Shown: in pieces, positions 10,637 through 13,633 of the stretch
Layout: every line of letters begins with the position of its first letter
Numbering within the stretch: position 1 is the stretch's first letter
Source: Oceanibaculum nanhaiense
Lineage (GTDB): Bacteria; Pseudomonadota; Alphaproteobacteria; Oceanibaculales; Oceanibaculaceae
Reading direction: 5' to 3'
DNA length: 64,000 bases
NCBI RefSeq assembly: GCF_002148795.1
Contig: NZ_MPOB01000005.1
Span: 1 to 64,000 of the forward strand
Program-made: the position numbers and the translations under genes
Notes under the pieces: model-generated
Told to the model about the DNA's origin: nothing
Databases searched by the model: none
Seen by the model: the letters and a program-made list of their open reading frames with translations, nothing else

Positions 10637-11632
10637 ATGCCGCGTATCCTGCCCTGGCTGATCGCCGTCGCGGTGCTTGCCACCATCCCGTTTCTCGGGC
10701 TGGGCAATTACTATCTGCATCTGCTGATCACCATCCTGATCTGGGGCTTCATCTATACCAGCTGGTCGCTGATGGGCCGGTTCGGGCTGGTGTCGCTCGG
10801 TCATGGCGCCTTTCTCGGTATCGGCGCCTATACGGTGACGCTGCTGTGGAACGATGCCGGCCTGTCGCCCTGGATCGGTATCCCGATCGCCATGGTGTTC
10901 GCCGGGATTGTGGCGGTGCTGATCGGCTATCCCTGTTTCCGCTTCCGCATCGTCGGGCATTATTTCGCGCTGGTGACACTGGCGCTCAGCGAGGTGGTGC
11001 GTCTGACCATTGTGGCCTTGCGCGACACTACGGGCGGATCGCTGGGCATAACGCCCCGCTCGGCGGATACGCCGAATTCGCTGATGGCGCTGCAGTTTTC
11101 CGACAAGGAGACGTTCTTTTACATCGCCCTGGCGGTGTGGCTGTTCGGCCTGTGGATATGGAAGCTGGTGGACCGGTCGATGGCGCGCTATGCGCTGGAG
11201 GCGATCTCCGAGGAGGAGGATGCGTCCGCCTCGCTCGGCATGAATGTGACCCGCACCAAGCTCACCATCACGGTCGTGAGCGCCATGATGACCGCGCTGG
11301 GCGGCGTGCTTTATGCGCAGTACCAGCTCTATATCAACCCGGAAACCATGTCGGGCATCGCCATCAGTCTGCAGATCGTGTTCGCGGTCATCGCCGGCGG
11401 CATGTATGTGCAGCTTGGGCCAACGGTGGGCGCGGTCTTCACCCTGATGCTGGCGGAATCGCTGCGCATCCTGGTCGGGCACGATGTGCACGGGCTGGAC
11501 GGCACGATCTACGGTTTGCTGCTGGTGCTGTTCATCATCTTCATGCCGAAGGGCATCCTTGGCGCGCTGCTGAGCTGGTGGGAAAAGCGCGGCGATTCCC
11601 GCGAGCAGGCGAAGCCCGCCCCGGCGGAGTGA
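10637..11632 (+). CDS. Branched-chain amino acid-type ABC transporter permease (LivM type)
   Basis: The 331-residue permease pairs with LivH. Family features are GRFGLVSLGHGAFLGIGAYT near residue 51, and a cytoplasmic coupling helix around LEAISEEEDASASLGMNVTRTK. The C-terminal MPKGILGALLSW ends the last helix. A strong GAGGAGG ribosome site lies in the end of livH. It is the last gene of the operon. No hairpin terminator is seen before the hicAB promoter, which starts 3 bp after the stop, so read-through into hicAB is possible. Confidence 0.93.
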   Translation: MPRILPWLIAVAVLATIPFLGLGNYYLHLLITILIWGFIYTSWSLMGRFGLVSLGHGAFLGIGAYTVTLLWNDAGLSPWIGIPIAMVFAGIVAVLIGYPCFRFRIVGHYFALVTLALSEVVRLTIVALRDTTGGSLGITPRSADTPNSLMALQFSDKETFFYIALAVWLFGLWIWKLVDRSMARYALEAISEEEDASASLGMNVTRTKLTITVVSAMMTALGGVLYAQYQLYINPETMSGIAISLQIVFAVIAGGMYVQLGPTVGAVFTLMLAESLRILVGHDVHGLDGTIYGLLLVLFIIFMPKGILGALLSWWEKRGDSREQAKPAPAE

Positions 11633-11635
11633 GGC

Positions 11636-11671
11636 TTCACAGACTCTTGCGCGTGTGTGATAATACACACA
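11636..11671 (+). promoter_or_regulatory. hicAB promoter with overlapping palindromic operator
   Basis: TTCACA (11636-11641) and GATAAT (11659-11664) are each 5/6 matches to the sigma-70 hexamers and are exactly 17 bp apart. A GTGTGT/ACACAC inverted repeat (11653-11658 and 11665-11670) wraps the -10 box, as expected for an antitoxin-repressed operator. Transcription should begin about 11671-11673, at or next to the hicA ATG (11673), and no ribosome site precedes it. Confidence 0.78.
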
Positions 11672-11672
11672 T

Positions 11673-11864
11673 ATGGATAGCCGTGAGATCATCGCCGCAT
11701 TGGAAGCTGCGGGCTGGCGTCATAAGCGCACGACGGGCAGCCACTGGCATTTCTGGCATGAGGAATTTCGCCGGCTGGTGACGGTGCCGCATCCGAAGCG
11801 GGACATGCCCATCGGCACGGTGAAGGCGATCGAACGGCAAAGCGGCGTGAAGCTGACGAGGTGA
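11673..11864 (+). CDS. hicA: HicA-type toxin (mRNA interferase)
   Basis: This 63-residue protein has the double-stranded-RNA-binding-like HicA fold. MDSREIIAALEAAGW is followed by the catalytic GSH motif (His24) in TTGSHWHFWH, and then VPHPKRDMPIGTVKAIERQSGV. HicA cleaves mRNA when not bound by HicB. The start codon has no Shine-Dalgarno sequence and coincides with the predicted transcription start, so the message may be leaderless, keeping toxin output low. The antitoxin gene starts 4 bp downstream. Confidence 0.92.
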   Translation: MDSREIIAALEAAGWRHKRTTGSHWHFWHEEFRRLVTVPHPKRDMPIGTVKAIERQSGVKLTR

Positions 11865-11868
11865 CGGG

Positions 11869-12252
11869 ATGACCTCTTATGTGGCCTATCTGCGCAAGGA
11901 TAAGGGAAGCGACTACGGAGTCGAATTTCCCGATGTGCCCGGCTGCGTGACCGCCGGGCACAGCATCGAGGAAGCGAAGGCCATGGCCGCCGAGGCGCTG
12001 GCCGGCCATCTGCAGATGCTGCTGGACGAAGGGTTGCCGGTTCCGGCGCCGTCGGACATGGACATGCTGGCCGGCGACCCGCACCGGGGCGATGCCGTCA
12101 TGCTGCTCGTCGAGGTCTCGCCCGATCTGCTGAAGGCGGAACGGGTGAATGTGATGATACCCCGTCATCTGCTGGGCCGCATTGATGCGGCGAGCGGCGG
12201 CAACCGCAGCCGGTTCCTGGCGGAAGCCGCCGAGGAGAAGCTCGCGGGTTAA
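11869..12252 (+). CDS. hicB: HicB-type antitoxin
   Basis: The 127-residue antitoxin has the N-terminal HicB partial RNase-H fold (YVAYLRKDKGSDYGVEFPDVPGCVTAGHSIEEA). The C-terminal ribbon-helix-helix-like DNA-binding part contains VNVMIPRHLLGRIDAASGGNRSRFLAEAA. It should neutralise HicA and, with its DNA-binding tail, bind the palindrome around the -10 box upstream of hicA. Unlike hicA, it has nearby purine-rich sequence (GAGGTGACGGG) that can act as a ribosome site, favouring antitoxin synthesis. Confidence 0.92.
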   Translation: MTSYVAYLRKDKGSDYGVEFPDVPGCVTAGHSIEEAKAMAAEALAGHLQMLLDEGLPVPAPSDMDMLAGDPHRGDAVMLLVEVSPDLLKAERVNVMIPRHLLGRIDAASGGNRSRFLAEAAEEKLAG

Positions 12253-12303
12253 CCGGCCAGTTGCTCTTGATTTGCGGCTGATTGCAGGGCAGCTATAGCG
12301 GCC

Positions 12304-13299
12304 ATGGACGTGCTCTTCGCTGCCGCTTTCGGCAACCTCCTCTCCCCGCTGGTCCTGAGCTTCGTGCTCGGTCTGGTGGCTGGCCTCGTGAAATCCGACC
12401 TCGACATGCCCGAGGCGGTGGGCAAGGCCATTGCCATCTACCTCATGCTGGCCATCGGCATGAAGGGCGGGGTGGAGATGGCGCAGGCCGGTGTTGGCCT
12501 TGCCATCCTGCCGGCGCTGCTGGCGGCCTTGCTGCTCAGCTTCGGCATGCCGTACATCGCCTATCCGCTGCTGCGCCGCCTGGCCGGCGCGGACCGGGTG
12601 AACGCCGCTGCCGTGGCGGCGCATTACGGCTCGGTCAGCATCGTCACCTTCGTTGCCGCGACGCAGATGCTGGCGCGCGACGGGATCGGCTATGAGGGCT
12701 ATCTGGTCGCCATGCTGGCGGTGATGGAGACGCCGGCGATCATCGCCGGACTGCTGCTGGCCGGTCGCGCGCTGGCGCTGGAAGGCGATCCGGCGGCGGG
12801 GCCGGATCACGGCGACCGCCGCGAATTGCTGCGCGAGGTGCTGGCCAATGGTTCGGTCATGCTGCTGGTTGGCGGTTTCTTCATTGGTTGGATCAGCGGC
12901 GGCGACGGCTATGCCGCGGTGAAACCCTTCTTCGACGCGCCCTTCAAGGGCGTGCTTTGCCTGTTCCTGCTGGAAATGGGGCTGCTGGTTTCGCGCCGGG
13001 TCTCCGGCTTCCAGATGCTGCGGCCCGGGCTTATCGCCTTTGGTCTCTACATGCCGCTGATCGGCGCCGTGCTGGGCCTGTGTGTCGCCTGGATGCTTGG
13101 TCTTTCAGTCGGCGGCGGCACGCTGCTGGTGACGCTGGCGGCCAGTGCTTCCTACATCGCCGTACCGGCGGCAATGCGTCTGGCCCTGCCGCAGGCCGAT
13201 CCCTCGCTCTATGTTACCCTGTCGCTGGGGGTGACATTCCCCTTCAACCTGATCGTCGGCATCCCGCTCTATGGCGCGATGGCCCGGCTGATCCTCTGA
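12304..13299 (+). CDS. SbtA-type sodium-dependent bicarbonate permease
   Basis: The 331-residue polytopic protein of the SbtA family (PF05982) begins FGNLLSPLVLSFVLGLVAGLVKSDLDMPEAV. It has the family segments YLMLAIGMKGGVEMA, HYGSVSIVTFVAA and the PAAMRLALPQADPSLYVTLSLGVTFPFNL end. About ten helices in two inverted halves are separated by a hydrophilic linker (residues ~160-180). SbtA imports bicarbonate with sodium in cyanobacteria. In heterotrophs the same transporter may feed carboxylases. The next gene encodes a PII-like protein as in cyanobacterial sbtAB, which supports the call. Confidence 0.88.
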   Translation: MDVLFAAAFGNLLSPLVLSFVLGLVAGLVKSDLDMPEAVGKAIAIYLMLAIGMKGGVEMAQAGVGLAILPALLAALLLSFGMPYIAYPLLRRLAGADRVNAAAVAAHYGSVSIVTFVAATQMLARDGIGYEGYLVAMLAVMETPAIIAGLLLAGRALALEGDPAAGPDHGDRRELLREVLANGSVMLLVGGFFIGWISGGDGYAAVKPFFDAPFKGVLCLFLLEMGLLVSRRVSGFQMLRPGLIAFGLYMPLIGAVLGLCVAWMLGLSVGGGTLLVTLAASASYIAVPAAMRLALPQADPSLYVTLSLGVTFPFNLIVGIPLYGAMARLIL

Positions 13300-13312
13300 C
13301 GCGAAGGCCGCC

Positions 13313-13633
13313 ATGACCGACGAATTGCCGACACACAGGAAAAAGAAGGTCGAGATCGTGGTCGAGGTGGCGCGCGCCCCGCGCATCCTGCGGATGCTAA
13401 CGGAGAAGGGGGCGACCGGCTATACGGTGGTGCCCAATCTCGGCGGCAAGGGGCGGCGCGGCATGCGCGGCGGTGCCGATGTGGTGCAGGTGTTCGACAA
13501 TGTGATGATCATCGCGGTCACCACCGAGGAGATCGCCCGCGCCATCCTCACCGAATCGCAAAGCCTGCTGAAGGATTATGTCGGCATCGTCTATATGTCC
13601 GATGTCGAGGTGGTCCGGGACGAGCATTTCTGA
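13313..13633 (+). CDS. PII-like SbtB-type regulator
   Basis: The 106-residue ferredoxin-like-fold protein follows the permease gene by 13 bp. The segment KKKVEIVVEVARAPRILRMLTEKGATGYTVVPNLGGKG with the flexible T-loop region (residues ~44-62, GGKGRRGMRGGADVVQVFDN) fits the PII superfamily. By analogy with cyanobacterial SbtB it should bind an adenine nucleotide and gate the permease. The C-terminal disulfide motif (CGPxGC) of many SbtB proteins is absent; the protein ends VEVVRDEHF and contains no cysteine. Its stop codon overlaps the next start codon. Confidence 0.82.
   Translation: MTDELPTHRKKKVEIVVEVARAPRILRMLTEKGATGYTVVPNLGGKGRRGMRGGADVVQVFDNVMIIAVTTEEIARAILTESQSLLKDYVGIVYMSDVEVVRDEHF

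Follow-up and report, generated by a model that had tools for sequence, protein, structure and literature searches.

The window, a stretch of 64,000 nucleotides from contig NZ_MPOB01000005.1 of Oceanibaculum nanhaiense, carries a classical toxin-first chromosomal HicAB pair between the permease gene livM and the gene of an SbtA-like bicarbonate transporter, with hicA lying a short distance ahead of hicB (Table 1). HicA aligned to the whole of its profile (positions 1–58 of 58) with 68.9 bits, where the curated cut-off is 27, and its GSH motif is formed by G22-S23-H24. His24, nearly invariant, is the putative catalytic residue, and both RNase activity and toxicity are predicted for the protein. 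HicB was likewise matched over its full profile (1–123 of 123; 98.7 bits), and its residues 6–125 matched the solved HicB 6g1n; for its C-terminal DNA-binding region we infer a ribbon-helix-helix fold. The SbtA-like gene is itself followed by a P-II-like gene, and the two resemble an SbtA–SbtB pair (12304–13633) that runs in the same direction as hicAB.

Table 1. Features of the hicAB locus, in positions of the window
Feature	Position	Strand	Remarks
livM, branched-chain amino-acid permease gene	10637–11632		upstream of hicA by 40 nt
-35 hexamer TTCACA of the predicted hicAB promoter	11636–11641	+	mostly TTGA(C/A) in homologues, at similar spacing
predicted HicB operator GTGTGT-GATAAT-ACACAC	11653–11670	.	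perfect palindrome centred on the -10 box
-10 hexamer GATAAT	11659–11664	+	TATAAA/TATAAT in homologues; stops 8 nt short of the hicA ATG
predicted transcription start	11671–11673	+	A11671 or A11673, from the -10 position and 27 + 22 homologous loci with a 4–9 nt gap
hicA	11673–11864	+	63-aa HicA toxin, PF07927, E 3.9e-19; PDB relatives 4c26, 6g26
hicB ribosome-binding site GAGGTGA	11858–11864 (exact limits approximate)	+	overlaps the end of hicA
hicB	11869–12252	+	127-aa antitoxin, PF15919, E 3.4e-28
SbtA-like bicarbonate transporter gene	12304–13299		PF05982; after hicB

Homology to a sister species ends at 11637 and restarts at 12266, and the same gap after livM holds in that species a HigB-like toxin (PF05015) with an HTH antitoxin (G003:C29:26200-28200, L178). 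By this comparison the hicAB module is an exchangeable cassette, and the gap after livM a toxin–antitoxin exchange site. In another species of the genus an apparent decayed hicAB remnant follows livM (G001:C12:206400-208600, L179), and the SbtA-like gene that follows hicAB in the window is absent from that locus.

The first-pass annotation had drawn attention to the hexamers TTCACA and GATAAT, 17 bp apart, to a promoter beginning 3 bp after livM, and to a GTGTGT/ACACAC palindrome flanking the -10, all of which were found exactly as it described them. The hexamers match the consensus at 10 of 12 positions, each departing from it, and a TG precedes the -10. Among sites of the sigma-70 type, the kind that was modelled, this is the only one in 11000–12800, where chance alone gives 0.3, and the promoter match, taken by itself, is therefore only suggestive; comparison across homologues raises the predicted promoter well above chance. 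An in-frame TAA (11661–11663) sits within the -10 box, so that hicA can have no upstream start and the ATG at 11673 is its sole possible one, and the conserved HicA residues begin at M1. Transcription had been proposed to begin at about the hicA ATG, and the near-start position stands, to be corrected to either 11671, with a leader of 2 nt, or 11673, with none. These two predicted positions appear equally likely, the gap of 8 nt lying at the long edge of the range. hicA combines an AUG start, no Shine-Dalgarno (SD) sequence and a -10 box 4–9 nt upstream.

The absence of a ribosome site before hicA and the presence of one before hicB had also been pointed out, and the pairing energies agree. 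Of 401 called genes, hicA falls in the weakest 16% by upstream anti-SD pairing (-3.5 kcal/mol) and hicB, with a strong -11.5 kcal/mol, in the strongest 1–2%, in a ranking biased towards strong SDs as gene starts are picked partly by SD. A second hicAB copy in the same genome (G000:C1:527638-528209; L002, L018) has a promoter that abuts the hicA ATG with a gap of 5 nt and again no SD, and a third, distant hicA-like match lies at G000:C8:51729-51917. A scan for the leaderless signature, run on the window and 400 kb of the genome, yielded no more than a faint -10 signal in genes with weak SDs.

When the hicB relatives in genome contigs were inspected, several alphaproteobacteria and one Aminicenantes genome showed a TGTGTATAAATACACAC-like sequence right next to the hicA ATG, with looser versions of the arrangement in one Rhodocyclaceae and one Holophagaceae genome. 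All loci were scored with a promoter matrix and an SD model based on E. coli. A first set of 108 non-redundant hicA upstreams, from several hundred genomes, contained 61 with a strong promoter, and among these the distance from the -10 to the start codon was bimodal: 4–9 nt at 27 loci, 10–21 nt at 6 and 22–34 nt at 26. For the shortest class, 200 shuffles gave a mean of 1.9 loci and a maximum of 5, and the gaps of these abutting loci cluster at 5–8 nt. Their hicA SD has a median of -2.0 kcal/mol against -2.2 in shuffled sequence, that is, none above chance, and the hicB SD of the same operons reaches -7.1 kcal/mol and is the stronger in 26 of 27. In the leadered class the hicA SD is -6.4 kcal/mol (Mann-Whitney p 9e-7 against the abutting class) and ATG starts number 15 of 29, compared with 25 of 27 at abutting loci (Fisher p 9e-4); both p values overstate the independence of the loci, since the tree described below offers few independent contrasts, and the ATG counts of both classes may be inflated, as ATG codons close to the expected position were favoured when starts were picked.

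The cut-offs had been chosen with the first set in view, so the same values were then applied to 63 additional non-redundant upstreams, drawn for the most part from viral contigs and from another class of the phylum. Gathered with the same HicA profile and query family, this later set is a fresh sample, not a fully independent one, and the samples centred on G483 and G153 contributed little. Here 22 of the 33 strong promoters abut the start codon (1.1 in shuffled sequence), hicB has the stronger SD in 21 of these 22 operons (-7.45 against -2.5 kcal/mol for hicA), and ATG starts hicA at 22/22 abutting and 6/10 leadered loci. Many distantly related bacteria, and viral contigs too, show the same predicted promoter-on-start-codon layout, which is a trait of the family, and the original prediction of a leaderless hicA with the operator on its -10 box now has the support of a comparison that spans more than 100 loci. 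At six close hicB relatives (L028, L029, L035, L036, L041, L042) no intact hicA was found, its 5' part being missing, degraded or frameshifted; this suggests that the antitoxin is often kept after loss of the toxin, with assembly errors as the alternative.

A tree of HicA and HicB from 52 loci needs nine changes of architecture, at least three of them forced by well-supported branches. Architecture clusters on this tree, none of 500 shuffles requiring as few changes, and the window locus joins three further abutting loci in a group with 99% support. Pair tests corrected for phylogeny had only three supported independent pairs to work with and did not reach significance. The position of the motif is still informative, given the deep divergence of the loci.

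The operator could be followed in the same comparison. In the window its arms (GTGTGT at 11653–11658 and ACACAC at 11665–11670) flank the -10 exactly, and with up to one mismatch allowed the sequence occurs only once in the 3.84-Mb genome, the window holding a single perfect copy. Arms with at least 7/8 matched positions lie on the -10 box at 20 of 66 loci, against 1.5% of shuffles, and such palindromes occur in abutting and leadered classes alike, in differing sequences (GTGTGTATAATACACAC, TGCGCATATATATACGCA and GGGTTACTATAACCC types). Since they sit on the -10 at both start-codon distances, the operator keeps its place on the promoter, and it is the start codon that moves relative to both. 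The palindrome of the window hicAB promoter is a predicted HicB site whose position is conserved in homologues. The upstreams of L088, L090, L119, L141 and L075 belong to other HicAB subgroups and carry other -10 palindromes (e.g., GGGTTACTATAACCC), and this variety provides a natural set for reading the operator specificity of HicB.

Several known systems bear comparison with the locus. The classical hicAB with a ribbon-helix-helix HicB (Class 4, PMC10865869), such as those of Burkholderia pseudomallei and Yersinia pestis (HicAB3), likewise have the toxin first and the antitoxin second, and the window HicB is homologous to the solved HicB 6g1n. In B. pseudomallei and Y. pestis the operator palindrome overlaps the -10 box (PMC11594946), as it does in the window, so the overlap itself was already known; what sets the window locus apart is a combined operator and promoter placed right against the start codon of a toxin gene that lacks a good SD, and the available portions of those accounts do not describe a leaderless hicA. 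In Sinorhizobium meliloti, an alphaproteobacterium like the present host, HicB binds the promoter region through its C-terminal ribbon-helix-helix domain, and the accessible part of that paper discusses neither leader length nor operator sequence (PMC6327479). E. coli K-12 differs in having a HicB with an HTH domain, a hicA that starts with GTG and has the SD GGGAGG, and a promoter P2 that acts beside an upstream P1 and whose transcripts yield no HicA. The nearest -10-like element there, TATACT, ends 19 nt upstream of the hicA start and by our own reading would be P2, which is expected to favour HicB over HicA. Leaderless toxin–antitoxin transcripts have been recorded for 32 of 37 pairs in Mycobacterium tuberculosis (PMC3898074), and also in Methylosinus sporium 5 (PMC12403871) and Synechocystis (PMC4963859), none of the leaderless Synechocystis loci in the part of the table covered being a HicA. 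With these the window would share an operon that begins at the start codon of its first gene; they come from genome-wide start-site maps, whereas here the trait is followed by sequence through a single toxin family that also has a leadered form. A literature search that covered papers readable without subscription returned none that calls hicA leaderless.

We consider it probable that the window holds a leaderless-toxin variant of HicAB, whose mRNA is leaderless (0–2 nt) for HicA and SD-led for HicB and comes from an autorepressed promoter. The single recognisable promoter would fire at, or no more than 2 nt from, the hicA AUG, giving an operon mRNA with a leaderless toxin cistron and an antitoxin cistron with a strong SD. 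HicB would bind the palindrome centred on the -10 and repress its own promoter, as the homologues indicate; when HicB drops, the promoter would open and one mRNA would serve both proteins, HicB by SD-dependent initiation and HicA only by initiation that depends on a 5' AUG and is independent of an SD. The likely effect would be that the first-placed toxin cistron is held below the antitoxin cistron, under a different translational control. It is from the DNA that we infer the transcript start, the binding of HicB and the HicA:HicB ratio. The layout suggests a selected way to separate toxin output from that of the antitoxin, probably below it. The further claim of the first-pass annotation, that leaderlessness makes toxin translation weak, is not established, given that Caulobacter crescentus translates leaderless mRNAs as well as leadered ones (PMC4117421). 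Leaderless starts in S. meliloti are all AUG (PMC3616915), and in E. coli and Caulobacter non-AUG leaderless starts are less efficient (PMC9031893), rules with which the ATG preference of the abutting class is consistent. Leaderless translation also falls with longer distance from the 5' end (PMC9031893), which fits the scarcity of 10–21 nt gaps.

Transcripts starting near hicA might also, as from P2 of E. coli, give only HicB, with HicA made from a longer message that begins upstream or reads through from the liv operon, a reading favoured by the stretch between livM and hicA, in which no terminator was detected. The longer E. coli transcript, however, can use the SD of hicA, whereas neither the window nor the abutting class has a hicA SD above chance for any transcript to use, and a silent hicA would need neither the 5–8 nt gap nor an ATG; we regard such an arrangement as quite unlikely. 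The related suggestion, that read-through from the transport operon supplies a leader that changes toxin output, is unsupported by the sequence: the leader would bring no good SD for hicA (-3.5 kcal/mol in the window, shuffled level in the abutting class), the message would carry a strong one ahead of hicB, and any gain from read-through should therefore be in HicB, not HicA. As RNA, the operator palindrome could form a 7-bp hairpin beside the hicA AUG; the idea that this blocks read-through messages was dropped, as opening the start region takes 9.7 kcal/mol in the window against 11.8 with shuffled upstreams, with a p of 0.11 for the class.

That the mRNA is a normal leadered one from an unrecognised start farther upstream, the hexamers near the ATG being merely part of the operator, seems scarcely credible. 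The hexamers are indeed imperfect, and the model covered only sigma-70-type sites, but 11000–12800 offers no second sigma-70-like site, correctly spaced -35 and -10 boxes recur in homologues, and the sole leader available has no good SD. It is very improbable, too, that a start at the AUG reflects no more than the compactness of inserted cassettes, which shed spare sequence, leaderless initiation being unselected and the toxin under no special control. Although the module is compact and lies in a toxin–antitoxin exchange site, compactness does not jointly predict the clustering at 5–8 nt, the few gaps of 10–21 nt, the loss of the SD and the keeping of ATG.

If the leaderless-toxin reading holds, the HicAB family may have a widespread architecture in which one mRNA is read by two initiation modes, from the 5' AUG and from an SD, and any condition that boosts leaderless translation, as (p)ppGpp is reported to do in E. 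coli, would shift the ratio to HicA without a protease acting on HicB; this extension is speculative and, on balance, doubtful. Toxin-first operons pose the standing question of how the antitoxin can outnumber a toxin that is translated ahead of it. A leaderless toxin that recurs, paired with a strongly SD-led antitoxin, would be a simple and testable answer, distinct from the two-promoter answer of E. coli, and a gene family that exists in matched versions, with and without a leader, would be useful for asking what purpose leaderless initiation serves.
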